Shown here: positions 5,943 through 46,498 of the stretch, in pieces | Layout of the letters: every line of letters begins with the position of its first letter | Position numbering within the stretch: the stretch's first letter is position 1 | Origin: Inonotus obliquus | Lineage: Eukaryota; Basidiomycota; Agaricomycetes; Hymenochaetales; Hymenochaetaceae | Length of the DNA stretch: 64,000 nucleotides | Direction: 5' to 3' | Assembly (NCBI GenBank): GCA_032164295.1 | Contig: JAJHTX010000008.1 | Location: 1,054,001-1,118,000, forward strand | Made by a program: the position numbers and the translations under genes | Notes under the pieces: generated by a model | Told to the model about the DNA's origin: nothing | The model's input: only the letters and a program-made list of their open reading frames with translations | The model's database searches: none

Positions 5943-7200
5943 ATGACCGACTTTCTGCAGTCCATCCTCGATATGGGCACCATACACCCCACCATCTACA
6001 GCGACCTCCAGGTGGCATCGGACGGCTCGTTCATGTCAACCGAGGAAGCTGATCGTTTGACCTCGCCAGATGTCTCTGGCATAGGTTTTGACAACCTACT
6101 TGAATCTGACACGGACAGCGCCTACGCACCCTTTGGTGCTAGTCCATCCTTCCCATATGGCGCGCTTGACGGCGAGCCATTCTCGATGGACGGCAATCTA
6201 CTCGTGAGTATTACTTTGTCCCAGTAAACAAACATGTCCTGACGAAGAGACCTAGGGTGACTGGTCCATCCCCCTGTCCTCGTCGGGTGCTGCCAACATG
6301 GCCCACGAAGATCTTGTCACTCAAATCCCTTCTCCGCCTCCGATCAAGAGAGGATTTGGTAACGATCTCTCAAATATAGAGAGGTCCACGGCAGATCTTC
6401 CTCCTCTGTTTTCCTCCTCCTCGTCATCATCGGGAGCATCGACTCCAGAGGTGGCAACACCAACGCATCTGCCCTCTCCCATCTCGGCTCCCGCACCGTC
6501 CTTGTCCCCGTCGTCCCTGTCCCCACCGTCCTCGCCATCGTCCGGAGTCTCGACTCCAAAGATGGCAACTCCGACGGACCTTCCCTCTCCTGTCTCGGCT
6601 TCCGCACCGAGCCCGTCCCTGACCCCGTCACCGTCGTCCTCGCCAACGTCCGGAGTCTCAACTCCAGCGGTGGCCACACCAGTAGACATGCCTTCCCCCA
6701 TCTCGGTTCCCGCGTCCGCATCCTCCTCTCCCACCTTGGCTCCCACTCCCTCGCCCTCCTCTCCCACACCGACTCCAGCACACTCGTCCTCCTCTCCGGC
6801 CAGAAAAAGCGCAAAGCAGAGGCGGAACGCCGCCCCGTCAACTCGCCCTCCGAACCGTTCATCCGCATCTCGCCCTCGCAACGTTCCCGTCGTCCCCGCA
6901 GTGCACAAAGTCATGTGCATCCTGGAAGATTGCGACAAAGGCTTCGGCGATCGGACTGCCATGCTCCGGCATGTTATGTCGGGGCATATGAGGCAGAGGC
7001 ACAAATGTCACGGCTGCCCCAAAAGTTTCACGCGTCCCGACGCACTGGTGCGCCATCTGAACACAACTGTGTTGGGCTCTGAGTGTCGTCTGGCGGCGAT
7101 GGAGAACGGGTGGGAGCAAGTCGTTGGTGAGAAGGGGATCCAAATGAGAAGAACAGAAAGAACAGACAGGATCAAGATAGTCGCTGACTTCCTCTCATAG
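5943..7200 (+). CDS. C2H2/C2HC zinc-finger protein, A-type copy 2 (two exons, longest linker)
   Basis: Exons 5943-6203 and 6256-7200 give 401 aa, the longest member. The linker has three copies of the S-G-x-S-T-P-x-x-A-T-P repeat, against two in most other A copies, so the length difference comes from in-frame repeat gain. The basic patch reads KSAKQRR. Finger 1 starts with CILEDC and keeps C-x4-C-x12-H-x4-H; finger 2 is C-x2-C-x12-H-x9-C. The protein ends ADFLS with a TAG at 7198-7200. The TATA box is at 5841. It is the second A gene of the first A-A-B-C block. Confidence 0.88.
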
Positions 7201-16871: not shown

Positions 16872-18042
16872 ATGACCGACTTTCTGCAGTCCGTCCTTGA
16901 TATGGGCGCTATACACCCCACCATCTACAGCGACCTCCAGGTGGCATTGGATGGTTTGTTTGTGTCAACCGAAGAGGCTAATCGCCTGAATCTGCTAGAT
17001 TTCTCTGGCATGAGTTGGGACACCCAATTCGAACTAGACATGGACAGCGCATCTGCACCCTTTGGTGCTGGTCCATCCTTCCCATATGGCGCACTTGACA
17101 GCGAGCCATTCTCGATGGGCGGACATCCACTCGTGAGTAATACTTTGTCCCAGTAAATAAACATGTCCTGATGAAGAGACCTAGGGTGACTGGCCCATCA
17201 CCCCATCCTCGCCGGGTGCCGCCAACACCGCCCACGAAGACCTTGTCACTCAAATCCCTTCTCCGCCTCCGATCAAGAGAGGCTTTAGTAAAGATCTCTC
17301 AAATATAGAGAGGTCCACAGCAGATCTTCCTCCTCTGCTTTCCTCCTCCTTGTCATCATCGGGAGCATCGACTCCAGAGGTGGCAACACCAACGCATCTG
17401 CCCTCTCCCATCTCGGCTCCCGCACCGTCCTTGTCCCCGTCGTCCCTGTCCCCACCGTCCTTGCCATCGTCCGGAGTCTCAACTCCAGAGGTGGCCACAC
17501 CAGCAGACATGCCTTCCCCCGTCTTGGTTCCCACGCCCCCACCCTTCTCTCCCATCTCAGCTCCCACTCCCTCGTCCTCCTCAGAGACACCCTCGCCCTC
17601 CTCTCCTGCAGCGGCTCCAGTACACTCGTCCTCCTCTCCGGCCGGCAAAAGCTCGAAGCAGAGGAGGAATGCCGCCCTGTCAGCACGCCCTCCGAACCGT
17701 TCATCTCCATCTCGCCCTCGCAACGCTCCCATCGTTCCTGCGCATCACAAAGTCATTTGCAGTGTTGAAGGATGCACTAGAGGCTTCGGTGATCGGACTG
17801 CCATGCTCCGGCATGTTATGTCGAGGCATATAAAGCAGAGGCACCAATGTCACGGCTGCTGCAAAAGTTTCACGCGTCCCGACGCACTGGTGCGCCATCT
17901 GAACAAAACTGTGTTGGGCTCTGAGTGTCGTCTGGCGGCGATGGCTAACGGGTGGGAGCAAGTCGTTGGTGAGAAGGGGATCCAAATGAGAAGGACAGAA
18001 AGAACGGACAGGATCAAGATAGTCGCTGACTTCCTCTCATAG
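16872..18042 (+). CDS. C2H2/C2HC zinc-finger protein, A-type copy 3
   Basis: Exons 16872-17132 and 17185-18042 give 372 aa. Two STPEVATP-type repeats are present in the linker, and the patch reads KSSKQRR. Finger 1 opens CSVEGC as in copy 1, while finger 2 (CHGCCKSF) resembles the copies at 34324 and 45355, so the gene looks like a mosaic of copy-1-like and other sequence. Gene conversion within the array would explain this, though I have not tested it. The retrotransposon sits 269 bp after the stop, so its 3'-flank block is split: the element at 18225-18250 stays on the left and the CACGTG ended up at 30655-30660. Confidence 0.88.
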
Positions 18043-18306: not shown

Positions 18307-18311
18307 AAGGT
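18307..18311 (+). repeat. Left target-site duplication AAGGT
   Basis: AAGGT directly precedes the 5' LTR and is repeated exactly at 29585-29589 directly after the 3' LTR. Confidence 0.95.
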
Positions 18312-18354
18312 TGTTAGAAAGGTAGTATTATCCATCATTAATAAGCCAATAACT

Positions 18355-19116
18355 ATGAGCGTCCTACGTTGGATACAAGAACGGTTAGCGGCAGTAATAC
18401 AAGTACTAGAACAGCCTATCGTTCCACCGACACCACGAAGCAATATACTACGATGTTGCAACACGTGCCGCCCAGCTAAAGAACTAGCAGGAGGGCTAAT
18501 GCGAGAATTAATCAGAGAGATCACGTACGGGGACATAATGAACGGACAAGCCGATATAATGATACGACGTCGATTTGTAGAACTAACCTACGACCCTAAC
18601 CAACAAATACAAAAAGCTTATGAAAGGGAGATACGAGTATTATCCTACGACGCCGGACACTTTGTAATGATGATCGGAATACGAAACGTAGCACAGGAAG
18701 GAAGACACGAACGATGCGACGCAGCTATAGTAGATGTCGACATTGCCTACAAGCGAGACCAAGCCGGAACGAATGAGAGAACTGCATATGCTTGGGGGCA
18801 TTGGATAATGAATTACATAAGTCGAGGATTACCTTATGGATATACCATAATGGAAATAAAGGTAGAACAGTACGGCGGAGTAATACACCTACAAGGAGTA
18901 CAAGGGGTAAACCTACAACGTGCCAGGACAACGCTAGGATATACACGAGTGCAAACTATTCGAAACTGGCTGACTGTACCACGACCGATACCAACGAGAC
19001 CCGAAATACAAGGACAGGTGACTCAGCAATTACCTAGAATAGCTGAATTAGATCAAGTGCCGTTACCTATACAAGAATCAAACCTATCTGCGAGATGGTA
19101 CCGCCCACTGCACTAA
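18355..19116 (+). other. U3 part of the 3' accessory ORF, present in the 5' LTR
   Basis: This 253-codon frame is the LTR-borne portion of the ORF described at 28051-28935. In this LTR it lies upstream of the LTR TATA box and lacks the 41-codon N-terminal extension that comes from internal sequence, so it is probably a passive copy made by reverse transcription. Confidence 0.7.
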
Positions 19117-19263
19117 ACTAATCAAAGAGAGGCTAGTAATACAGAGGTAGTGAAATGAGGAAGGAAGTAAAGAGAAAGCACGGACCAGGTATCATGGAGG
19201 AAGAAACAGATAAATACCATAAACAGTAAGTAACAAGGTAGTAACGTCACACATGTAAATTAG

Positions 19264-19270
19264 TATATAA
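19264..19270 (+). promoter_or_regulatory. LTR TATA box (TATATAA)
   Basis: TATATAAGG is the only strong TATA box in the LTR. ATG triplets disappear from the + strand just downstream of it, which supports transcription starting here. The equivalent in the 3' LTR is 29083-29089. Confidence 0.7.
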
Positions 19271-19767
19271 GGAGGCCATCGTAGAGCCGACCTAGCAGTT
19301 TAATCCAAGTCAAGGGACCCTACCATAAGTCCCTAAGTTAAATCGTAACATCAATTACTTGCGAGCCAGTAAATTACCAGTAGCGACACGGCTGAACTGA
19401 ACCGATTGTGTGAAATCGAAGTAAAGCTAAAATACGGATTGCAACTAGATTGTTCTCCCTATTGTCTGCACGGTACGAGCTACTCACAACGTAGTGCGAT
19501 TCCCGATATTCCCTTATCGTGAATAACAATCAGTATAACAATCGCGTATTCCCGCCGACTTAATACTGTACGATTATAGTATCAGGTTCAACTGCAATAT
19601 TAGTTAGTTGCTAGTTGTTTCAGATCGGATCAGCTACACAGTCCACTAAGGTGATTAGCAATTCCATAACCAGTATTGTAGAATTTGGATTAACCCCTCA
19701 AACCGAGGAATTAGCCAGATTGGTCCGTCGATCAAGAATCAACGAACCCTCCACGGAGATAAACATC

Positions 19768-19781
19768 TGGATTAAACTCCC
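19768..19781 (+). promoter_or_regulatory. Primer-binding-site candidate
   Basis: TGGATTAAACTCCC begins 2 nt after the 5' LTR, the usual position. It begins with TGG, the complement of a tRNA CCA end. The priming tRNA is not assigned. Confidence 0.55.
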
Positions 19782-19867
19782 TTCTTGGCAAGCTTAAAGG
19801 AACAAGCGCAGACTATTGCCAATAAAGGTAATTGTGATAGCACGAACTAGTCATTCAAATAGACTGA

Positions 19868-20257
19868 TTGAATAATTCCCTTATCCAATCAGTAGGCCAC
19901 CTGGAACGGCAAATAGATATCAGTAACAACCACCGAAACCTAGAACCACAGGTCGGGTTAACATTGGAGCGTGCAAAACAAACGCAGGAACGAGAACAAG
20001 GAGCGCCGAAAGATATAGATGCGTGGAAGCTAATAGCGAGGCAACCAATTTGGCAAGATCTCTACTGGGATCATTTCAAGACAGGAAGGGTTATAGGCAA
20101 AGTATCACCTACACCGCACGAGAGTGTATTTAAGAGAGCACTAGAAAACGGAGGAGGAACGTTGTACTCCGCGCAAGCACACGCCAACCTATTACACCGA
20201 ATACTACTAGCCCTACTCAACGGAAAGAAAGAGAAAGCAAAAGCAAGTAAAGTATAA
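19868..20257 (+). other. Leader open frame without any ATG (129 codons)
   Basis: Open from 19868 to the TAA at 20255-20257 with no ATG in frame. The encoded sequence looks protein-like (Gln/Glu/Lys-rich, ending in a Lys-rich tail) but matches no family I know. A plausible 65-nt intron (donor GTAATT at 19828, acceptor AATCAG at 19891-19892) would extend it upstream, also without an ATG. A second candidate intron (20247-20298) would fuse it in frame to the next open frame. It could be translated from a non-AUG codon, or the frame may only reflect an older arrangement. Confidence 0.4.
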
Positions 20258-20298
20258 GCGCAAAAAAAAACCGAATACATAATTAAATATAACTATAG
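20247..20298 (+). other. Candidate 52-nt leader intron that creates an ATG when removed
   Basis: The donor is A|GTAAAG and the acceptor is TATAG|TGG. Removal joins GCAA to TGGCT, giving GCAATGGC: an ATG with G at -3 and G at +4, a favourable context, in frame with the 530-codon frame that follows. The 129-codon frame is also joined in frame. The length matches other introns in the window. The branch site is not clear (TATAAC lies very close to the acceptor), so this is a candidate only. Confidence 0.45.
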
Positions 20299-21890
20299 TG
20301 GCTTACGAAGGAATATACGCGGGGCTGGTTACAGTATTCATATTTGGTACGATCTACTATAGGACAGCGATCGCAAGTGCGCTCAGACGAGGAACAAGAC
20401 TACTTCAATACCTGTCTATTTACGAACCCTACGCAACGCAGTGGGGGATATATCACTACTCAACTGCCATTGGAACGCAAGTGGACCGATTGGCCGGAAG
20501 GATCGAACTAATCCTCAACACACAGGCTGAAAAGGATCAAGCGTTGGGAGTGTACCTAGACCATCAGTTCAATCAACATATCGAGAAACATAGCCGCTGG
20601 CACAGGAGTAACGACGAGGCACACCATATCACCAGAACGTTAGTAAGGTACAACCAGACAGAGCTAGGCATCCTCCGGACTATAACGAGAGAAGTACAAC
20701 ACACCTTCGAGACGCTACAGCGAAGACAAGAAGAGCACATAGAGCGGTGGACTGCCCGAGAACACCGAGACGCCGAATTTCAGCGCGAATTATTAGATAA
20801 AGTAAGCCGCATCGAGACAAACTTCCTACGCCTAAGGAATCAAGTGTCGGATATCAGAGTCGCACTCGCCGCGTGGGAAGGAGAAGAAAGACAGCGAGAG
20901 GAAGCGGAAATCCAACAAGACTGGAACACCGTCGGATCGTTATTGGGAGACGATCAAGATCAACCAACGCCGGAACTAACTCAGTCCGAAGCCAGTTGGG
21001 AATCACCGAACGAATCGGAGCAGAACGGAGGAGAGTGGGGAACAGGGAGCCGTTGGGCAAATTCAGAGCCAAACGGGTTTAGGGACTTCAACGGAGACGA
21101 AAGTTACAGGCACCCAGACTCGCCAATTCCCACCATTCCAGACGAGGAACCGGAAGAAGGAGAGATACAATTACACGTAGTCGACTTCAGGGCCCAGAAC
21201 GAAAGTGAGAACCTAACTACCATCACGGAAGAAGAAGAAGGCATTAACCAAGAAAGTAGTACCTCCGGGATTACATTTGATAACGGGAGAAGACTACCAA
21301 GCGGCATTAACGTTACTCGAGATCAGGCAGGGAACGTCCGCATAGACCTGCGAGGATTGGCTAGGTTAAACATAAACGAGATAGTCGAGGAAGTAATTAC
21401 AGAGCTACAAGAAGAACTAAAACCGACAAACGAACAAATCCCAACAATAACCATTAGTCGCAAATATCATCGAAAAGCAGATCAGGACAGAATAGCTAAA
21501 GGAATCATAGGTCGAATCCGAGAACAAAGAGAAGCAAACAATAGGAAAGAAGAAACCAGAGAAGTCCAGAAAACCGAACGAGAACAGGGGATCATTGAAG
21601 AGGTAGAAACAAGAGGAAGGTTGGTATTGTATTATTCCCCAGGATCCACGACCAGTGGCAATTCAGAAGAATTCTCCAGCCCATTCAGCGACGTTAGTCA
21701 AGCCCACAGTAGCAATACCACAGAAGACGAATACCTAGAAGACAATTATCGAAGGCATTTAGCGTTACTAGAATTCGACCCGGCAGAACTCGAAATCTCG
21801 GAACAAGAACTGAGAGACCGATTGACTTGGGATTCAAGCGAAGATGACGAGCCTACAAATGAGTATGTCGCAGAAACCACCGAAGTTTAG
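20298..21890 (+). CDS. Long accessory frame upstream of gag; membrane segment plus coiled coil
   Basis: 530 codons with no ATG in frame. The frame opens after a stop at 20280 and the first possible start is GTG at 20298, or an ATG made by splicing out 20247-20298. Residues about 5-27 form a hydrophobic segment, probably a membrane anchor. About 60-205 are charged and heptad-like, consistent with coiled coil. The rest is acidic and low in complexity, ending with a Glu/Asp-rich region. It overlaps the gag start by 47 nt in another frame. No known domain is recognised. A signal-anchored protein that acts with Gag is one idea; an N-terminal Gag extension is another. Confidence 0.5.
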   Translation: MAYEGIYAGLVTVFIFGTIYYRTAIASALRRGTRLLQYLSIYEPYATQWGIYHYSTAIGTQVDRLAGRIELILNTQAEKDQALGVYLDHQFNQHIEKHSRWHRSNDEAHHITRTLVRYNQTELGILRTITREVQHTFETLQRRQEEHIERWTAREHRDAEFQRELLDKVSRIETNFLRLRNQVSDIRVALAAWEGEERQREEAEIQQDWNTVGSLLGDDQDQPTPELTQSEASWESPNESEQNGGEWGTGSRWANSEPNGFRDFNGDESYRHPDSPIPTIPDEEPEEGEIQLHVVDFRAQNESENLTTITEEEEGINQESSTSGITFDNGRRLPSGINVTRDQAGNVRIDLRGLARLNINEIVEEVITELQEELKPTNEQIPTITISRKYHRKADQDRIAKGIIGRIREQREANNRKEETREVQKTEREQGIIEEVETRGRLVLYYSPGSTTSGNSEEFSSPFSDVSQAHSSNTTEDEYLEDNYRRHLALLEFDPAELEISEQELRDRLTWDSSEDDEPTNEYVAETTEV

Positions 21891-22782
21891 AGGAAGAGAT
21901 AAGGAGAACGTGGATGTATTTATAAATAAAATGATTAGTAATTTTGCATGGATGGATGCGCAAAATCAGAGCAACAAACAAGCGGCACTAACAGATAGTA
22001 ACAAAGCCTACATCATGTGCCAATGCATGGAAGAGAAGGCTGCCACGTGGGTAAGCACAGCGTTAAAAACAAATCCGCTAGATATGATAGGAAAAGGGCA
22101 AGTATGGGAAACGTTTGAAGAATTCTTAACCTACATAAGGAGTAACCACAAACAATACTATGACCCTGTAGAAGACGCAACGAATAAATTAGTAAATATT
22201 GTACAAGAAGGCTCCATATTGCAGTACAATAGTGATTTCGGAAAGATAGTATCAGAATTAGATAAGGCAGTATGGCCGGATAAGGCACTTACAGTATTAT
22301 ACAGAAGAGGGATGAAAGATTATATTTATGCGCAGTTAGCAGGACAAACGGAAAGCGCGAAATGGACACTGGCAAACTGGATGAGCCGAGCAGTAGCACT
22401 AGAAGGCGCAAGATATGGCGCCAAGGCAAGAACTAAGACCTTCACGAGCAACTGGGAAAAACCCCAGAGGAGAAAAGACGATGTAGTCCCAATGGACGTA
22501 GACGTACGAAAATTCAGAAAGAGGACTAATAAAGGAAAACCCAGGTACCGGAGTAACCAAAAACCGAAGAATACGACGGGTTGTTACAGATGTGGTAAAC
22601 CAGGTCACATTGCCAGAGAATGCAGAGTGAAACCACGAGAAGGAAAACCTCCGAGTAGACCGGGCTATCAAAAATTCAAGAGAAGATTGATAGGAGAAGA
22701 ATCGGAATATGAAGGCTCCAACGAGGCTAGCGATAACGAGAAAGAAAGAGAACCTAAAGAGGATTTTCAAGAAAGCGACTGA
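21844..22782 (+). CDS. gag: Gag (capsid/nucleocapsid) of the retrotransposon
   Basis: 312 aa. The N-terminal two-thirds resembles the retrotransposon Gag domain (about residues 15-190, with a WETFEEF-like helix). A Cys-Cys-His-Cys zinc knuckle lies near residue 247 (C-x2-C-x4-H-x4-C), followed by a basic then acidic tail. The protein forms the particle and packages the RNA. The ATG at 21844 has A at -3 and is only the second ATG after the LTR TATA box; the other, at 20019, opens a five-codon frame including its stop. This supports start-site choice by scanning. It overlaps pol by 25 nt, pol being in the -1 frame. Confidence 0.93.
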   Translation: MTSLQMSMSQKPPKFRGRDKENVDVFINKMISNFAWMDAQNQSNKQAALTDSNKAYIMCQCMEEKAATWVSTALKTNPLDMIGKGQVWETFEEFLTYIRSNHKQYYDPVEDATNKLVNIVQEGSILQYNSDFGKIVSELDKAVWPDKALTVLYRRGMKDYIYAQLAGQTESAKWTLANWMSRAVALEGARYGAKARTKTFTSNWEKPQRRKDDVVPMDVDVRKFRKRTNKGKPRYRSNQKPKNTTGCYRCGKPGHIARECRVKPREGKPPSRPGYQKFKRRLIGEESEYEGSNEASDNEKEREPKEDFQESD

Positions 22783-25700
22783 TCGAATCGGCTGATCAGC
22801 GCGCAAGGAAAGGGACCATAACGAAACCAGAAGGAAGATGGTCGCGGGTAAAAGCGAAATGGAAACGCCGATGGACGACCCCGGTAAAACCAAATACCGA
22901 TCATCCAAAACTGAGGATATACCTCAGTCAGGGGGGAAAGAGAAACCTGCCAATAACAGCAATGATCGACTCAGGATCAGTATTAACAACGATTAGTCCT
23001 AATACCGTCAAACGATATGGACTAGATACAATAAAGAAACAGAATCCTGCCCAAATTAGAAATGCAGATGGAACGCTAACGAATAACGGGTGGAAGGAAA
23101 GCGTTAGAGCATGGGTGGATACCGGAGCATCAAAAGGAAATATGGAACTCGCAGTAGTAGAAACTACAGGAGACAAATTTTTATTAGGAAATGATTGGAT
23201 AGCTAATTATAAGCCAGTCATAAACTGGGAAACGGGTAAGGTAACAACTAGATTTGGGGAAGCCAAATTGTTAGGAACTCGGAATATGGTAACGATGGAA
23301 AGAATGGCTCGATATCAACAGAAAAGAAGAAGAAAATCCCGTAGAATTAGATCTCCACTGCGAAGAGACTCCGAAGAAGGGTCCGAATCCGAAGGAGACA
23401 CGGGATTAACAATAAGGTGGAATACCATGGGAAAGGCAAGCTTAGGGAATCTACCGACACCACCACCAAGGTCCGTACAAACCGCGGTGATTGTGGTGCC
23501 TCCAGAAGGAATACGGCCAACCACACTAACGCCTAAGGACGTCACAGTATTGCCAGCCCCAGTAATGCAGTATAGGGAGTCGCAAGAAGGAATCGAATCC
23601 GACCCAGAGGAAGTCGAAGAAATAGAAGAAACTACGGAAGAAAGGGACGAATTCCAAGAACAAATCTTGAGAAACTTTGGGAAATTAGCTGAAGAACTGC
23701 AAAGACTAGAGGAAACAAATCTCGAAGACCCGCCGAGATCACCAGAAAGAACGGAAATAGCACTCCCAAGCATAGAACAAATAATATCCGGGGAAACACC
23801 GAGTAAGAGATTACCACCGCAACCACCGCCAAAGATGCACCAAGTAGGGCAAGGCGGAAGTAGAATAACTAGAGAGAGGAAAACGAGTTACCAAAAGGCC
23901 CGAGAAAATAAAACTAAACCAGAAGAAGTGGTATACGACCGAAACATGAGAATAACTGTACAAGTAAACGATCAAAAACCCCAAAACCGAGATTATAGCC
24001 GAAACAGCAGGATGAAAAAGGAAAGGACCGAGCAGGAAACAACCGCAATTAAGAAATTAAATAAGTATAGCAGTATGGCACAAAAGTACTCCCAAGAAAA
24101 AGCAAGGGAACAAGGACGATCACAAATAGGAACGACTAAGCATTGGAAATCCTTGGTGCCTAAGGAGCTATGGGATTTCGGGGAGATATTTAGCGAGAAC
24201 AATTCAAAACGACTACCGAAGCACAATCAATGGGATATGAAAATAGTGTTTAAAGAAGGACAGGAACCAACAGCGAAACGAACCATTTATCCGCTAATGC
24301 CACTAGAACAAAAAGCAGTGGAAGAATTCATAGAAGACAATTTGGCAAAAGGATGGATCAGGAGATCCACTTCAAAGTACGCAATGCCGGTATTCTTCGT
24401 CGGAAAGAAGGATGCAGGGGCAAGAATGGTAATAGATTACCGACCAGTAAATGCAGTTTGTGAAGTAGATCAATACCCGATACCCATTATGCACACGCTA
24501 CCCGACAATTTGGGAAAGGCCAAATGGTTCACCACGCTAGACCTTCGGTCAGGATACAATAATATACGAATCCAAGAAGGAGACGAACATAAAGCCGCAT
24601 TCCGAACACATAAAGGAGTATTTGAACCATTGGTAATGCAATTCGGAATGATGAATTCGCCAGCAGTCTTTCAACGAGCTATGAACGAACTATTTGGAGA
24701 CATGTTGAACCATGGAGTGATGATTTATCTAGATGACATCATTATCTATGCTGAAACAAAGGAAGAACTGTTACAAAAGACGAGGAAGGTACTAGCTCGA
24801 ATACGAAGAGCAGACTTCTATCTGAAACTGGAAAAATGCTTCTTTAACAAGCAAGAATTAGACTACCTGGGATTCATAGTGAACAAGGACGGATTAAAAA
24901 TGGACCCGTACAAACTCAAAGCAATAGAAGAATGGCCAGTACCGCAAAACAAACGGGATATAAAGAAATTTACAGGATTTTGTAATTTCTATAGGAAATT
25001 TGTCAAGGACTATGCAGCAATAGCAAGGCCGATGAAGAAACTAGAATCCAAGAAACAAGCCTTTGTATGGGGAGAAGAGCAACAAAGGTCGTTTGAAGCC
25101 CTGAAAAAGGCCGTAATCACAGGACCAATACTAAGAAGACCAGACTATGACAAAGCCTTCGTAGTAGAAACAGATGCGTCAGACTATGGCATGGGAGCAG
25201 TATTATCACAAGAACACAAAGGAAAACTACATCCTATTGCCTATCTCACGAGATCCTTTACAACAACTGAAAGGAACTGGCCAGTATCCGAAAAGGAACT
25301 GTACGCAATTGTGATCGCCCTAACTACTTGGAGACACCATTTAGAAGGAGCGAAACATACTATCTTAGTACTATGCGACGCGTTGAACCTGAAGACCTTC
25401 ATGAAAGCGCAACGAGTCGGACGAAAACAGGCCCGATGGGTCACGGACGTACTAAGTAGATATCAATTCAAAATCGATTATCGACCAGGAAGCAAGAACA
25501 CGAGAGCCGATGCGCTATCCAGGAGATCAGGATATGACGAAGGAAAGAATGATAACAAGGACGTGATCGTATTACCGAGCGAGAGATTCGTCAACCCAAA
25601 AATATTTGATCGACAAGCTAGAAACAGCACAAGCGAAGGAATGGTACCACCAAACGATAAATTAATACCCGGACAGGATCGGAAAAGAGATGTATTATAT

Positions 25701-27323
25701 ACCTTCCACGACTCACCAATGAGCGGACATCCAGGAACAGACAAGACGATAGCGGCAATAGAAGAAATCTATTGGTGGCCGGATATGAAGGAAGAAATTA
25801 GGGAATACGTTGCCTCATGCCACATTTGTCAAAAGAACAAACCTAGGAGGGGACGAACACAACCACCGCTGAAACCATTGGAAATACCAACGGGACCATG
25901 GAAACATATCACCATGGATTTCATTACAGGACTTCCAGAAAGTGAGGGCTATGATGCGGTACTAGTGGTAGTAGACCGGTTTTCAAAAATAGCAACGTTT
26001 ATTCCCTGTACTAAAGAAACAGACAGTAAGAAAACAGCGAAGATGCTATTGGACCACGTATTCACGAAACACGGACTACCAGAAAGAATTACTAGCGACA
26101 GAGGCCCACAGTTTACAAGCAACTTTACACAAGAAGTATATAAAGCCATGAACATTGACAATGCGCTTAGCACGGCACATCACCCACAAACAGATGGGCA
26201 AAGCGAAAGAGTAAACCAGGAACTAGAACAATACCTAAGGCATTACGTAAACACAGCGCAAGATAACTGGGCGCAGTACATCCACATGGCAGAGTTTGCT
26301 TATAATAATAGAGTACACGCAGCAATAAAGAAGTCACCATTTGAACTCCTTTATGGAAGAAAATTGGAAATATTGCCCATGGGGCAAGCGAACGCACCAG
26401 ACGCACAGGAATATATTAAAAAGGTATGGGAAATACAGAAACAAGCAGAACAAGCGCTGATGGCGTCAAATGAACAAATGAAGAGATACACCGATAAACA
26501 TAGGAGGGCAGAATTAGAATTCAAGGTAGGAGATAAGGTAATGATAGATGCTAGAAACTACAATATAGTAGTACCCAGCCGAAAGATAGGACCGAAGAAT
26601 TTAGGACCATATAGAATAATCAAACAACATGGGCCATTGAATTACGAACTAGAATTACCAAAGAAGATGCGCATACATCCAGTATTATATGCAGGCAATC
26701 TTATTAAATATCAAGATAGAATAGTAGATAACACCACGGAAGACCAAGAAGTACCTTCGAATCCAGTCATTGTAGAGGATGACGAATACGAAGTAGAAAG
26801 GGTACTAAATTCAAGGAAAACAGGACGGAAATATTACTTCTTAATAAATTGGAAGGGATACGGGGCAGAACACGATTCATGGGAGCCATTAGGGAACCTA
26901 GGAAACGCCACGGAAAAGATCGAGGAATACTATCAGAAACACCCACAAGCGGAGAAACCAAATTACATCGACGGATGGATTAGAAGGAATAACGAAAACG
27001 AAGAGAAAGGAAAACGAACAGCCAAGAGAAGGATGATAAATACCAGGAACCCGATAAAAATAAAGGATTTCGCGTATGACGAAAATAACCCATTACACAC
27101 CAATCCTAGTGGTTCATCGAGAACGGATAATCTAGAAGAAACATACCGGAGAGTCAAAAGTCCACTATCCAAGGGACAACATTGGGAGGAAGACGACGAC
27201 AACATCAGGAGGAATCCTGATCATGCCATAAAAAGGGATGAGAACGGAGGCCGCATCCGGCAAAGAAGTAGACGGTTAACGAAGCGGAAACCTACGGGTT
27301 CACACGAGGAACAGGGTATATAA
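22758..27323 (+). CDS. pol: Pol polyprotein: protease, RT, RNase H, integrase, chromodomain
   Basis: The frame opens at 22758 after a stop and is probably entered by -1 frameshifting; the first in-frame ATG (22962) is right at the protease DSG motif, too far in to be a natural start. Counting from 22962: protease DSG at residue 3; RT core with YLDD near 588; RNase H around 735 (TDASDYG); integrase zinc-binding H/C motif around 914-960; integrase catalytic residues around 986 (MDF), 1045 (SDRG) and 1082 (QSERVNQE); GPY/F-like module near 1210-1245; chromodomain near 1275-1327 with WKGY and W-E-P. All catalytic motifs are intact. Gene order and chromodomain place it with chromoviruses of Ty3/gypsy. 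The stop codon overlaps an internal TATA box. Confidence 0.95.
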   Translation, partial: RGFSRKRLIESADQRARKGTITKPEGRWSRVKAKWKRRWTTPVKPNTDHPKLRIYLSQGGKRNLPITAMIDSGSVLTTISPNTVKRYGLDTIKKQNPAQIRNADGTLTNNGWKESVRAWVDTGASKGNMELAVVETTGDKFLLGNDWIANYKPVINWETGKVTTRFGEAKLLGTRNMVTMERMARYQQKRRRKSRRIRSPLRRDSEEGSESEGDTGLTIRWNTMGKASLGNLPTPPPRSVQTAVIVVPPEGIRPTTLTPKDVTVLPAPVMQYRESQEGIESDPEEVEEIEETTEERDEFQEQILRNFGKLAEELQRLEETNLEDPPRSPERTEIALPSIEQIISGETPSKRLPPQPPPKMHQVGQGGSRITRERKTSYQKARENKTKPEEVVYDRNMRITVQVNDQKPQNRDYSRNSRMKKERTEQETTAIKKLNKYSSMAQKYSQEKAREQGRSQIGTTKHWKSLVPKELWDFGEIFSENNSKRLPKHNQWDMKIVFKEGQEPTAKRTIYPLMPLEQKAVEEFIEDNLAKGWIRRSTSKYAMPVFFVGKKDAGARMVIDYRPVNAVCEVDQYPIPIMHTLPDNLGKAKWFTTLDLRSGYNNIRIQEGDEHKAAFRTHKGVFEPLVMQFGMMNSPAVFQRAMNELFGDMLNHGVMIYLDDIIIYAETKEELLQKTRKVLARIRRADFYLKLEKCFFNKQELDYLGFIVNKDGLKMDPYKLKAIEEWPVPQNKRDIKKFTGFCNFYRKFVKDYAAIARPMKKLESKKQAFVWGEEQQRSFEALKKAVITGPILRRPDYDKAFVVETDASDYGMGAVLSQEHKGKLHPIAYLTRSFTTTERNWPVSEKELYAIVIALTTWRHHLEGAKHTILVLCDALNLKTFMKAQRVGRKQARWVTDVLSRYQFKIDYRPGSKNTRADALSRRSGYDEGKNDNKDVIVLPSERFVNPKIFDRQARNSTSEGMVPPNDKLIPGQDRKRDVLYTFHDSPMSGHPGTDKTIAAIEEIYWWPDMKEEIREYVASCHICQKNKPRRGRTQPPLKPLEIPTGPWKHITMDFITGLPESEGYDAVLVVVDRFSKIATFIPCTKETDSKKTAKMLLDHVFTKHGLPERITSDRGPQFTSNFTQEVYKAMNIDNALSTAHHPQTDGQSERVNQELEQYLRHYVNTAQDNWAQYIHMAEFAYNNRVHAAIKKSPFELLYGRKLEILPMGQANAPDAQEYIKKVWEIQKQAEQALMASNEQMKRYTDKHRRAELEFKVGDKVMIDARNYNIVVPSRKIGPKNLGPYRIIKQHGPLNYELELPKKMRIHPVLYAGNLIKYQDRIVDNTTEDQEVPSNPVIVEDDEYEVERVLNSRKTGRKYYFLINWKGYGAEHDSWEPLGNLGNATEKIEEYYQKHPQAEKPNYIDGWIRRNNENEEKGKRTAKRRMINTRNPIKIKDFAYDENNPLHTNPSGSSRTDNLEETYRRVKSPLSKGQHWEEDDDNIRRNPDHAIKRDENGGRIRQRSRRLTKRKPTGSHEEQGI
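22761..22767 (+). promoter_or_regulatory. Candidate -1 ribosomal frameshift heptamer GGATTTT
   Basis: The heptamer lies inside the 25-nt gag/pol overlap (22758-22782) with the right phasing: gag reads GAT TTT, and slipping back one base gives GGA TTT in the pol frame. It resembles the GGAUUUA type used by some retroviruses. I did not identify a downstream pseudoknot by eye. Confidence 0.55.
27317..27323 (+). promoter_or_regulatory. Internal TATA box (TATATAA) overlapping the pol stop codon
   Basis: TATATAAAG lies 94 nt before the next ATG (27417). It is followed by a pyrimidine-rich stretch (TATCCTTATCAATTCC near 27351) and no ATG until 27417. The layout is that of a compact fungal promoter and suggests a subgenomic transcript for the downstream genes. 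Confidence 0.5.
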
Positions 27324-27416
27324 AGAAAAGAGTCGCCGACGAGATACCAGTATCCTTATCAATTCCTTTCACCACCGCCATCAAAACCCTAAACACGAAT
27401 ACCAACGCCGAACAAA

Positions 27417-28044
27417 ATGTCGAAAACCGTAGAACTCGTACTCGCGATAGTAGCGTTTGGATTGGTAATCATGATGAGTCTGATAATACAATGGAGACTG
27501 CAATTTTGGATATGGAGACAGGTGCGCAGTCATTACAATAGAGAGGTAGCAACCGTTAACCAGCTATCAGGAATTAAATCACCCGCCTGAAGAAGGCGTA
27601 GACCAAAACCCGATAGCGTTCGCGCACGGAAATGAAGATGAAGATGAAGATGAAGATGAAGATGAAGATGACGATTACATCCCGATGCCGTTCATCCCCT
27701 GGCCAGCCGAGCAACAAATGGCGCAACAAGAAGAACTATGGGCAAACGTAACAGCGCCCTCAAATGAAGATTGGGGAGACATCTCTACGTGGGGAGCAAG
27801 CTGGTCAGCAACGAACGACCCAGATCACGAAACGTTCTGGACGGACGACGAGTTTATTTGGGACAACTGGACGCCGGAACAATTAAACGAAATCTACGAG
27901 ATAAGAAGGACCGCGAGAGAACAAATGAGAAACGAGTTAGTGAATCGAGCAGCGCTGGAGAGAGCGCTAGAAGAAGAACAGAACGCAGACGACGAAATAT
28001 GGGTGGACATTCAGTTGTGGTCGTCAAATGTAGAGGAATTTTAG
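27417..28044 (+). CDS. Accessory protein: N-terminal membrane segment plus acidic, Trp-rich tail (spliced)
   Basis: Exons 27417-27521 and 27571-28044 give 192 aa if the 49-nt intron (GTGCGC...TATCAG) is removed; the splice is phase 0 and joins two frames that otherwise make no sense apart. Unspliced, the first frame ends at 27590 (57 aa) and the second has no ATG before 27685. Residues about 6-27 are strongly hydrophobic, followed by a short basic stretch, then a Glu/Asp repeat coded by an ATGAAG-type microsatellite (27632-27670), and an acidic Trp-rich domain. It could be a small single-pass membrane protein in the place where some elements carry env, but no env similarity is visible. Confidence 0.6.
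27632..27670 (+). repeat. GATGAA hexanucleotide microsatellite in the accessory gene
   Basis: Six copies of ATGAAG plus ATG. In the accessory-gene frame it codes for alternating Glu and Asp, so changes in copy number would alter the acidic stretch without shifting the frame. Confidence 0.8.
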
Positions 28045-28050
28045 CTCAAA

Positions 28051-28935
28051 ATGGGCTTAAGAATTATGAATAAAGAATATGTGTCATGCATTCCTTATGA
28101 TTATGTCAGATGCATTCCTAGAAGGGGGAGTGTTAGAAAGGTAGTATTATCCATCATTAATAAGCCAATAACTATGAGCGTCCTACGTTGGATACAAGAA
28201 CGGTTAGCGGCAGTAATACAAGTACTAGAACAGCCTATCGTTCCACCGACACCGCGAAGCAATATACTACGATGTTGCAACACGTGCCGCCCAGCTAAAG
28301 AACTAGCAGGAGGGCTAATGCGAGAATTAATCAGAGAGATCACGTACGGGGACATAATGAACGGACAAGCCGATATAATGATACGACGTCGATTTGTAGA
28401 ACTAACCTACGACCCTAACCAACAAATACAAAAAGCTTATGAAAGGGAGATACGAGTATTATCCTACGACGCCGGACACTTTGTAATGATGATCGGAATA
28501 CGAAACGTAGCACAGGAAGGAAGACACGAACGATGCGACGCAGCTATAGTAGATGTCGACATTGCCTACAAGCGAGACCAAGCCGGAACGAATGAGAGAA
28601 CTGCATATGCTTGGGGGCATTGGATAATGAATTACATAAGTCGAGGATTACCTTATGGATATACCATAATGGAAATAAAGGTAGAACAGTACGGCGGAGT
28701 AATACACCTACAAGGAGTACAAGGGGTAAACCTACAACGTGCCAGGACAACGCTAGGATATACACGAGTGCAAACTATTCGAAACTGGCTGACTGTACCA
28801 CGACCGATACCAACGAGACCCGAAATACAAGGACAGGTGACTCAGCAATTACCTAGAATAGCTGAATTAGATCAAGTGCCGTTACCTATACAAGAATCAA
28901 ACCTATCTGCGAGATGGTACCGCCCACTGCACTAA
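28051..28935 (+). CDS. 3' accessory ORF running through the polypurine tract into U3 (294 aa)
   Basis: ATG at 28051, only 6 nt after the accessory-gene stop, an arrangement that suits termination-reinitiation on one transcript. The frame crosses the polypurine tract and LTR border (28131) and ends at 28933-28935 in U3. Another ATG at 28174 would give a 253-aa form fully inside U3. The protein has paired cysteines (RCCNTC near residue 86) and otherwise mixed alpha/beta-like composition; I recognise no family. The layout recalls nef or sag of complex retroviruses, which also extend into U3, but that is analogy of position only. The LTR copy is intact in both LTRs. Confidence 0.6.
   Translation: MGLRIMNKEYVSCIPYDYVRCIPRRGSVRKVVLSIINKPITMSVLRWIQERLAAVIQVLEQPIVPPTPRSNILRCCNTCRPAKELAGGLMRELIREITYGDIMNGQADIMIRRRFVELTYDPNQQIQKAYEREIRVLSYDAGHFVMMIGIRNVAQEGRHERCDAAIVDVDIAYKRDQAGTNERTAYAWGHWIMNYISRGLPYGYTIMEIKVEQYGGVIHLQGVQGVNLQRARTTLGYTRVQTIRNWLTVPRPIPTRPEIQGQVTQQLPRIAELDQVPLPIQESNLSARWYRPLH
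28120..28130 (+). promoter_or_regulatory. Polypurine tract
   Basis: AGAAGGGGGAG lies immediately before the 3' LTR, as expected for the plus-strand primer. It is read through by the 28051 ORF. Confidence 0.85.
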
Positions 28936-29584
28936 ACTAATCAAAGAGAGGCTAGTAATACAGAGGTAGTGAAATGAGGAAGGAAGTAAAGAGAAAGCAC
29001 GGACCAGGTATCATGGAGGAAGAAACAGATAAATACCATAAACAGTAAGTAACAAGGTAGTAACGTCACACATGTAAATTAGTATATAAGGAGGCCATCG
29101 TAGAGCCGACCTAGCAGTTTAATCCAAGTCAAGGGACCCTACCATAAGTCCCTAAGTTAAATCGTAACATCAATTACTTGCGAGCCAGTAAATTACCAGT
29201 AGCGACACGGCTGAACTGAACCGATTGTGTGAAATCGAAGTAAAGCTAAAATACGGATTGCAACTAGATTGTTCTCCCTATTGTCTGCACGGTACGAGCT
29301 ACTCACAACGTAGTGCGATTCCCGATATTCCCTTATCGTGAATAACAATCAGTATAACAATCGCGTATTCCCGCCGACTTAATACTGTACGATTATAGTA
29401 TCAGGTTCAACTGCAATATTAGTTAGTTGCTAGTTGTTTCAGATCGGATCAGCTACACAGTCCACTAAGGTGATTAGCAATTCCATAACCAGTATTGTAG
29501 AATTTGGATTAACCCCTCAAACCGAGGAATTAGCCAGATTGGTCCGTCGATCAAGAATCAACGAACCCTCCACGGAGATAAACA
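28131..29584 (+). repeat. 3' LTR (1454 bp)
   Basis: Same start (TGTTAGAAAG), end and length as the 5' LTR, with one difference seen at 28253. The TATA box is at 29083-29089. Confidence 0.96.
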
Positions 29585-29589
29585 AAGGT
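29585..29589 (+). repeat. Right target-site duplication AAGGT
   Basis: Matches 18307-18311. The following GATGATGGCGTTGG restores the 3' flank of A copy 3. Confidence 0.95.
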
Positions 29590-34323: not shown

Positions 34324-35497
34324 ATGTCCGACTTTCTGCAGTACGTCCTCGATATGGACACCATACACCCCACCATCTACAGCGACCTCCAGGTGGCATC
34401 GGACGGCTCGTTCATGTCAACCGAGGAAGCTAATCGATTGACCTTGCTGGATTTCTCTGGCATAGGTTTCGACAAAGATTCACTTGAATTAGACATGGAT
34501 AGCGCCTACGCACCCTTTGGTGCCGGTCCATCCTTCGCATATGGCGCGCTTGACAGCGAGCCATTCTCGATGGGCGCAAATCTACTCGTGAGTAATACTT
34601 TGTCCCAGTAAACAAACATGTCCTGACGAAGAGACCTAGGGTGACTGGCCCATCACCCCGTCCTCGCCGGGTGCTGCCGACGCCACTCACGACGACCTTG
34701 ACGCTCATATCCCTTCTCCGCCTCCGATCAAGAGAGGCTTTGGTAAAGATCTCTCAAATATAGAGAGGTCCACAGCAGATCTTCCTCCTCTGCTTTCCTC
34801 CTCCTCGTCATCATCGGGAGCATCGACTCCAGAGGTGGCAACACCATCGCATCTGCCCTCTCCCATCTCGGCTCCCGCACCGTCCTTGTCCCCGTCGTCC
34901 CTGTCCCCACCGTCCTTGCCATCGTCCGGAGTCTCAACTCCAGAGGTGGCCACACCAGCAGACATGCCTTCCCCCATCTCGGTTCCCGTGTCCGCATCCT
35001 TCTCTCCCATCTCGGCTCCCACTCCCTCGTCCTCCTCAGAGACACTCTCGCCCTCCTCTCCTGCATCGGCTCCAGCACACTCGTCCTCCTCTCCGGCCAG
35101 AAAAAGCGCAAAGCAGAGACGGAACGCCGCCCCGTCAGCACGCCCTCCGAAACGTTCATCTCCATCTCGCCCTCGCAACGCTTCCATCGTCCCCGCAGTG
35201 CACAAAGTCATGTGCATCCTGGAAGATTGCGACGAAGGCTTCCGCGATCGGACTGCCATGCTCCGGCATGTTATGTCGAGGCATATGAAGCAGAGGCACC
35301 AATGTCACGGCTGCCCCAAAAGTTTCACGCGTCCCGACGCACTGGTGCGCCATCTGAACAAAACTGTGTTGGGCTCTGAGTGTCGTCTGGCAGCGATGGA
35401 GAACGGGTGGGAGCAAGTCGTTGGGGAGAAGGGGATCCAAATGAGGAGTGCAGAAAGAACGGACAGGGTCAAGATAGTCGCTGACTTCCTCTCATAG
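34324..35497 (+). CDS. C2H2/C2HC zinc-finger protein, A-type copy 4
   Basis: Exons 34324-34587 and 34640-35497 give 373 aa; exon 1 is one codon longer than in other A copies (in the FDKDSLE stretch). The linker has two STPEVATP repeats. The basic patch KSAKQRR and finger 1 (CILEDC) follow copy 2, whose block position it shares. Finger 2 is CHGCPKSF...H-x9-C. It is the second A of the second A-A-B-C block. Its 3'-flank element is at about 35685-35812. Confidence 0.88.
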
Positions 35498-45354: not shown

Positions 45355-46498
45355 ATGTCCGACTTTCTGCAGTACGTCCTCGATATGGGCACCATACACC
45401 CCACCATCTACAGCGACCTCCAGGTGGCATCGGACGGCTTGTTCATGTCAACCGAGGAAGCTGATCGTTGGGCCTCGCTAGATTTCTCTGGCATGGGCCT
45501 CGATAACAGCCTGAAGTTGTACATGGATAGCGCCTACGCCCCGTTCGGTGCTAATCCACCCTTCCCATATGGCGCGCTTGACAGCCAGCCATTCTCGATG
45601 GGCGCCAATCTACCCGTGAGTATCACTTTGTCCCAGTAAAGAAACACGTCCTGATGAAGAGACCTAGGGTGACTGGCCCATCCCCCCGTCCTCGCCGGGT
45701 GCTGCCGACACCGTCCACGAAGACCTTGTCGCTCATATTCCTTCTCCGCCTCCGATTGAGAGAGGCTTTGGTAACGATCTCTCAAATATAGAGAGGTCCA
45801 CGGCAGATCTTCCTCCTCTGGTTTCCTCCTCCTCGTCGTCATCATCCGGAGTCTCGACTCCAAAGATGGCAACTCCGACGGACCTTTCCTCTCCCATCTC
45901 GGCTCCCGCACCGACCCCGTCCCTGTCCCCGTCCCCGTCGTCCTCGCCATCGTCCGGAGTCTCAACTCCAGAGGTGGCCACGCCAGCAGACATGCTTTCC
46001 CCCGTCTCGGTTCCCGCGTTCCCATCCTCCTCTCCCAGCTCGGATCCTACTCCCTCGACCTCCTCTCCCGCACCGACTCCAGCACACTCGTCCTCCTCTC
46101 CGGCCAGAAAAAGCGCAAAGCAGAGGCGGAACGCCGCCCCGTCAGCTCGCCCTCTGAACCCTGCATCTCGCCCTCGCAACGCTCCCATTATCCCCGCAGC
46201 GCACAAAGTCATGTGTATCCTGGAAGATTGCGACAAAGGCTTCCGCGATCGGACTGCCATGCTCCGGCATGTTATGTCGGGGCATATGAGGCAGAGGCAC
46301 AAATGTCACGGCTGCCGCAAAAGTTTCACGCGTCCCGACGCACTGGTGCGCCATCTGAACACAACTGTGTTGGGCTCTAAGTGTCGTCTGGCAGCGATGG
46401 AGAACGGGTGGGAGCAAGTCGTTGGTGAGAAGGGGATCCAAATGAGAAGAACAGAAAGAACGGACAGGATCAAGATAGTCGCTGACTTCCTCTCATAG
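45355..46498 (+). CDS. C2H2/C2HC zinc-finger protein, A-type copy 5
   Basis: Exons 45355-45615 and 45668-46498 give 363 aa. The linker carries two repeats, the first of the STPKMATP variety seen as the middle repeat of copy 2. The linker is shorter after the basic patch because a few codons (RSSA...) are deleted. Finger 1 CILEDC, finger 2 CHGCRKSF, both complete. It begins the third series of the array. Confidence 0.88.

Follow-up and report, generated by a model that had tools for sequence, protein, structure and literature searches.

An AUG-free coding leader in a Ty3/gypsy retrotransposon of Inonotus obliquus, and a candidate scanning route to its gag gene

Introduction

In rice tungro bacilliform virus (RTBV) and the badnaviruses, plant pararetroviruses of the Caulimoviridae, long upstream frames are described as free of AUG codons and the main open reading frame (ORF) as reached by scanning; ORFs I and II lack internal AUGs over about 900 nt, and ORF I of RTBV starts at an AUU that is used by about 10% of ribosomes (as set out in PMC5902531). 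Here we report on the 2.5-kb leader of a long terminal repeat (LTR) retrotransposon from the basidiomycete Inonotus obliquus, found in a stretch of 64,000 nt (contig JAJHTX010000008.1, positions 1,054,001 to 1,118,000; hereafter the window, with coordinates counted from its first letter) of an assembly of 36 Mb in 30 contigs. The element, an 11.3-kb member of a family that we call F1 (18312-29584, forward strand, as are all features given below), is of the Ty3/gypsy type with a chromodomain, as its LTRs, its target-site duplication (TSD) and its Pfam domains indicate, and its leader holds two long reading frames and a single ATG.

RTBV ribosomes first shunt past a structured leader that bears upstream ORFs, whereas the F1 leader is AUG-free from its presumed cap; the distance in F1 is 2.5 kb and, unlike the case in RTBV, the long leader frame is itself also without an AUG. 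Nor does F1 belong to the Caulimoviridae, which have no LTRs, a circular episomal DNA and usually no integrase: LTRs, a TSD and an integrase are all present in F1. Among LTR elements, the plant Ty3/gypsy element Ogre has an ORF before gag. To our knowledge, Tf1 and Tj1 have neither extra leader frames nor a protein frame in U3, unlike F1, which has both. Rice Retrosat2 is described as having an extra, fast-evolving ORF0 before its gag-pol ORF (PMC3485330); F1 is like it in the extra ORF ahead of gag and unlike it in host, Retrosat2 being a plant element, and the likeness is one of description, in which missing AUGs are not mentioned. ORF3a of the poleroviruses and luteoviruses is, in the account of PMC4422679, a conserved AUG-less ORF with a near-cognate start that precedes an AUG-started ORF; unlike the F1 leader proteins, it has only 45-48 amino acids and is carried by plant RNA viruses, on a subgenomic RNA. 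The features that F1 shares with Tf1, Tf2 and Tj1 are an RNA 5′ end, presumed in F1, that is complementary to the primer-binding site (PBS), a chromodomain integrase and an SH3 domain like that of Tf2-1, and the primer in Tf1/Tj1-type self-priming is reported to be the RNA 5′ end (PMC4600332).

The logic of the F1 leader appears to match that of RTBV and the badnaviruses. The mode is known there and is, tentatively, new for an LTR retrotransposon: a search of the open-access literature, limited in depth and hence weak evidence of absence, gave no report of an AUG-free coding leader in such an element.

Results and Discussion

The original prediction, made from the letters of the window alone, was that a single ATG lies between the TATA box of the 5′ LTR (19264..19269) and the gag ATG (21844), where about 40 would be expected at uniform base composition, and that two frames of 530 and 129 codons stay open over the same stretch without an in-frame ATG. 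Our recount gave the same picture: the sole leader ATG (20019..20033) is closed after four codons, the flanking ATGs stand at 19253, just before the TATA box, and from 21844 on, and the frames run from 20283 to 21890 and from 19868 to 20257. In the leader from the presumed RNA 5′ end to the gag ATG (19297-21843, 2547 nt), base composition predicts 39.7 ATGs and dinucleotides 24.5, against one observed, and none of 3000 dinucleotide shuffles of that sequence held fewer than 12 (mean 24.45). Of all 64 trimers, none is depleted more strongly there than ATG; CAT, its reverse-strand control, occurs 30 times. Upstream of the leader, U3 has 19 ATGs (17.0 expected), and a gag-pol stretch of equal length has 50 (43.7 expected). 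The longest ATG-free runs of the whole window, 1825 and 766 nt, are the two halves of the leader, followed by runs of 519 nt (R-U5 of the 3′ LTR, the same sequence as the leader) and 413 nt.

This avoidance is seen in non-coding and coding parts alike. The first 571 nt (19297..19867) are non-coding and hold no ATG against 8.4 expected. The longer frame, of 535 codons from stop to stop, was shuffled by synonymous codons up to the gag ATG (520 codons, 10000 trials) and has no ATG against a mean of 11.25 and a minimum of 4, with CAT as expected (22 vs 21.4); the 129-codon frame, with 1 against 2.92 (P 0.07), is weak on its own. Under the same shuffle neither gag (24 vs 23.8) nor pol (87 vs 87.6) is depleted. 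There is no methionine among the 643 residues of the two leader proteins past their presumed starts, against 30 among 1506 in pol, and TGN codons follow an A-ending codon in 0/9 cases in the 535-codon frame, against 39/79 in pol. AUG avoidance therefore works within coding sequence too, through the shunning of methionine and the choice of codon junctions. It extends from the presumed cap to the gag AUG, on the sense strand only, and stops there, leaving long upstream coding frames without an internal AUG in any frame, as in a leaky-scanning polycistron. The AUG desert is real and functional, and shuffled sequences fail to reproduce it.

The F1 leader has 18 matches in the genome, 16 of them long. 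Sixteen sequences were compared, the window copy and 15 further copies; two with a rearranged 5′ part were left out, leaving 14 for the counts. In one of these two (L051) about 1.76 kb of other sequence splits the leader at about 20319, and in the other (L053) the match to the element begins only at about 20379. Nine of the 14 have no leader ATG and five have one each, at five different places, so that the ATG at 20019, correctly listed for the window, is a private mutation of that copy and not a feature of the leader. The 88 variants found in single copies create 5 new ATGs (4.7 expected from random placement), and the 77 variants found in two or more copies create none, against 4.2 expected (P 0.013), in a test that leans largely on one split between two subfamilies and hence on one main event. 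In individual copies ATGs are gained as often as neutrality predicts, yet they were not passed on. The frames themselves are maintained: the shorter is open in 14/14 copies and the longer in 13/14 (L050 has one stop), with lengths of 1602, 1605 or 1611 nt that differ by multiples of three. Over 48 pairs between F1 subfamilies, the mean ratio of non-synonymous to synonymous substitution rates (dN/dS) is 0.11 for the 535-codon frame, 0.16 for the 129-codon frame and 0.07 for gag, and for the same 535-codon region the two other reading frames yield 0.76 and 4.59. Both ATG-less leader frames are under purifying selection. The two constraints originally proposed are thus both borne out: that the frames be kept coding, by these ratios and by homologous frames in a relative; and that AUG be kept out of all frames, by the shuffles, the copy counts and the shared-variant test.

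The relative in question, L054, has the layout of F1; the two are 56% identical in gag and 64% in pol, the latter over the 1044 residues compared. Its ATG-less frames of 140 and 514 codons are homologous to the two F1 leader frames (tblastn E 1e-15 and 1e-29, 29-30% identity; 33% and 35% in alignments of the proteins). Two ATGs occur in its leader of 2597 nt, opening short frames of 4 and 30 codons, and the 514-codon frame has 1 ATG against 7.3 in synonymous shuffles (P 0.0005). The relative L055 is decayed and its frames are broken; 8 ATGs were counted over 2585 nt (27.0 in dinucleotide shuffles), and placing its 253 differences from L054 at random would give 11.0 (standard deviation 3.0). 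This count is consistent with ATGs returning once a copy decays.

A sister family, F6, has 17 long matches in the genome, one of which is copy L057 (C1:3167000-3173000), and its pol is 51% identical to that of F1 over its first part. The F6 leader has 1 ATG in 1762 nt against 13.3 expected. The context of this ATG, which opens a 293-residue leader frame, is weak (U at -3, C at +4); that of the gag AUG is strong (A at -3, G at +4), and no AUG lies between the two. Among the five of the 17 long matches that were examined (two of them mutually identical), the leader ATG is kept in 5/5, a single additional ATG is present in each of two copies, and in two the leader frame is interrupted by one stop. 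The F6 leader protein is coiled-coil-like and has no further methionine before gag; it gave no tblastn match to the F1 leader frames, and its Pfam match to a kinetochore coiled-coil family lies below the cut-off (E 0.00018, 22 vs 31.1 bits) and is taken as coiled-coil resemblance. In a further family, F4, 1 ATG was counted in 1086 nt against 8.2 expected, from a transcription start that was guessed; no leader frame there exceeds 90 codons, except that about 100 codons of the gag frame are open before its first ATG.

The RNA 5′ end can be placed independently of the ATG counts. The 11-nt sequence AGTTTAATCCA (19297..19307) is the exact reverse complement of the PBS, TGGATTAAACT (19768..19778), 2 nt past the LTR, and is the likely self-primer at the presumed 5′ end of the genomic RNA. 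It stands 33 nt past the TATA box in F1, and the spacing is 34 nt in L054, L055 and F6 copy L057. The same 11-nt pair is found in L054 and L055; in L057 the pair is another one, of 16 nt, arranged in the same way. That complementarity is kept with different letters between F1 and F6 is as Tf1/Tj1-type self-priming predicts. The arrangement of Tf1/sushi self-priming, an RNA 5′ end complementary to a PBS beside the 5′ LTR, is present, the RNA 5′ end itself being presumed; and since such priming uses the RNA 5′ end, the expected start of the genomic RNA is at about 19297, with all of the desert inside it. A transcription start downstream of the leader, near 21.8 kb, which would have removed the ground for the original prediction, is rejected for the genomic RNA by this placement, and a second promoter could exist beside it. 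Within U5, F1, L054 and L055 share TTTGGATTAACCCCTC (19686-19703) without a difference. It shows a partial match to the complement of the self-primer and is possibly part of the priming structure.

Homology between F1 and L054 in the product of the longer frame, leader protein 2, begins at a GTG (20298..20300; 3740 in L054) with A at -3 and G at +4 in both, and the block that surrounds it, ATAGTGGCTTAC, is identical in 14/14 F1 copies, L054 and L055. We consider this GUG the most likely start of leader protein 2, which from here would read Met-Ala-Tyr followed by a hydrophobic segment that suggests an N-terminal membrane anchor. For leader protein 1, homology with L054 begins at about 19907-19910, at CAA-ATA-GA(T/C)-AT(C/T), and the candidate near-cognate starts, in moderate contexts, are ATA at 19913 and ATC at 19919 (AUA or AUC/AUU being shared with L054). 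Near-cognate or weak-context starts would be represented by a conserved GTG for the long frame, an ambiguous choice for the short one and a weak-context AUG in F6. Pfam gave no family for either F1 leader frame and, for the L054 leader proteins, only matches far under the cut-off (E 0.05 and 0.068); among PDB sequences the long protein had one chance-level match (E 0.54) and the short protein none. A programmed frameshift from the leader frame into gag was rejected as a conserved device, F1 needing +1 and L054 -1.

From these observations, we think it rather likely that ribosomes scan linearly through an AUG-free bicistronic leader to gag, with near-cognate codons (AUA or AUC near 19913-19919 and GUG at 20298) as the starts of the leader proteins. 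The 2.5-kb leader would code for two proteins, and selection would clear it of AUG in all frames. Cap-bound ribosomes would scan from the RNA 5′ end at about 19297 to the gag AUG at 21844; a minority would start before reaching it, first at the weak near-cognate codon, AUA or AUC, near 19913-19919 to make a leader protein of about 115 residues, and then at the GUG at 20298, in good context, to make a 530-residue protein with a membrane-anchor-like N-terminal segment, perhaps a membrane-linked accessory, the remaining ribosomes leaking through to gag. What favours linear scanning is that ATG is missing even from the first 571 nt, which do not code: such scanning predicts avoidance all the way from cap to gag, and internal entry or shunting would spare the skipped part. 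Of the translation scheme first proposed, scanning to the gag AUG is therefore the part that we favour; the other part, that the leader proteins are started in some way other than by AUG, is narrowed to the conserved GUG as a candidate for the long frame. In yeast reporters, changing the length of unstructured leaders by an order of magnitude is reported to have modest effects, and structure to inhibit (PMC12415969). Folding of three F1 leader stretches and one of L054 gave none more stable than shuffles beyond z -0.74. Near-cognate starts at ACG, AUU and CUG have been reported in Cryptococcus (as described in PMC7049704).

Besides the single main event behind the shared-variant test, several points weigh against this account. 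No hairpin beyond shuffles follows the GUG (z 1.04 in F1, 0.17 in L054), so that a near-cognate start would have no structural aid. GUG is usually an inefficient start codon, and the start of leader protein 1 is ambiguous between its candidate codons. The long leader protein found no match in a large protein collection, alone or as an alignment (A1). The depletion expected in related elements, seen in L054 and F6, is absent from L056 (pol 57% identical, a single decayed copy), where the 2547 nt ahead of the gag-like match contain 38 ATGs against 39.5 expected, with the leader start not located; no self-primer and no match to the leader frames were found in this copy, which also speaks against a general rule. 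A conserved A/GT donor and the TAG/TG at 20298, too, would let an AUG be made by splicing in place of the GUG.

These sites bear on a rival in which an intron of 407 nt (19892..20298) is removed from part of the RNA, joining A to TG so as to build AUG GCU UAC, in good context and in frame with the long leader frame, the unspliced RNA staying AUG-free for gag. With a slash marking the cut, the donor A/GTAGGC is the only site of GTRNGY type at corresponding places in F1, L054 and L055 (first ~1100 nt scanned), preceded by A in all three, and the acceptor TAG/TG at 20298 is conserved and in frame; by eye, L054 has a CTAAT about 26 nt upstream of the acceptor as a branch site, F1 has no good one, and lengths of 407 and 443 nt would be long for a fungal intron. 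A second conserved site, TATAG/G (20363; 3805 in L054), could do likewise with an exon ending in AT; it would need a conserved GT preceded by AT, and none of the conserved GT sites listed has AT before it in the two elements alike. For the 129-codon frame, none of the acceptors that F1 and its relatives share in position could build an in-frame AUG, which would still need a non-AUG start; the segment 19892-20298 is absent from 0/14 F1 copies, though the PBS lies upstream of it; and the sister family F6 uses a plain weak AUG. We regard a splice-made AUG as unlikely, and the N-terminus of leader protein 2 is the same under it as under a GUG start. It is more doubtful still that translation of the leader frames depends on internal entry, on shunting or on termination-reinitiation in place of linear leaky scanning. 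Retroviral leaders can hold internal entry sites, and the short frame ends 40 nt (F1) or 23 nt (L054) before the GTG, a spacing that fits reinitiation; internal entry or shunting, however, could leave AUG in whatever is skipped, yet the first 571 nt, which are non-coding, have none, and a frameshift between the two leader frames is excluded in F1, where they do not overlap. That the depletion is ordinary, any long 5′ leader losing its AUGs and the frames being remnants or chance openings, seems to us most improbable. Leaders of the other families here are ATG-poor as well (F6 and F4 above), and on AUG alone the explanation is correct within its limits; for the frames, it is refuted, as a remnant would not stay open over 535 codons with a dN/dS of 0.11, vary in length by multiples of three and have a 514-codon homologue in a relative, and the avoidance reaches inside coding sequence, down to the missing methionines.

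Scanning with near-cognate starts, to return to the account that we prefer, carries a wider claim: that a self-priming LTR lineage obtains three or more proteins from a single capped RNA, with ribosomes scanning linearly over a 2.5-kb AUG-free leader, that its leader proteins (about 115 and 530 residues), without internal methionine, are both started at non-AUG codons, and that a plant-pararetrovirus strategy has here evolved independently and been stretched almost threefold. This we hold to be about evenly balanced between right and wrong. If it is true, leaky-scanning polycistrons exist outside the Caulimoviridae, among LTR elements; conserved retrotransposon proteins are being missed because annotation demands an AUG; and the F1 family is a natural test of long-range scanning, with AUG kept out of 2.5 kb and two proteins preserved.

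Other features of the element and the window

The 5′ LTR (18312..19765, 1454 bp, TG...CA) is 99.93% identical, with one mismatch, to the 3′ LTR (28131..29584), and the element is flanked by a 5-bp TSD, AAGGT (18307-18311 and 29585-29589). The gag gene (21844..22782), opened by the first ATG past the desert, encodes a Ty3 capsid and a zinc knuckle, and the pol frame (22758..27323) encodes, by Pfam, protease, reverse transcriptase, RNase H, integrase, SH3_Tf2-1 and, at residues 1344-1394, a chromodomain, the order of a Ty3/gypsy chromovirus. A polypurine tract, AGAAGGGGGAG (28120..28130, by eye), adjoins the 3′ LTR. In a large protein collection gag had 2 matches, of 55 and 39% identity, and a scan of viral contigs with one of the two found no relative.

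U3 of both LTRs (18355-19116 and 28174-28935) contains a 253-residue frame with an ATG, 45% identical to a frame within the LTR of L054 and with a mean dN/dS of 0.19 between the F1 subfamilies (48 pairs); it had no Pfam or PDB match, and by these comparisons is a conserved protein encoded inside the LTR. Between pol and the 3′ LTR lies a 164-residue open frame (27550-28044), for which Pfam gave no match; after its stop the same frame reopens and runs into the LTR.

Elsewhere in the window there are five look-alike open frames of 276-314 codons (1180-2052, 6256-7200, 17185-18042, 34640-35497 and 45668-46498), recognised by their repeat units and not by alignment; for the one at 17185, Pfam gave a single weak match, to a C2H2 zinc finger. 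The region 15.3-18.3 kb is largely repeated at 32.7-35.8 kb, and these are apparently a duplicated gene family.

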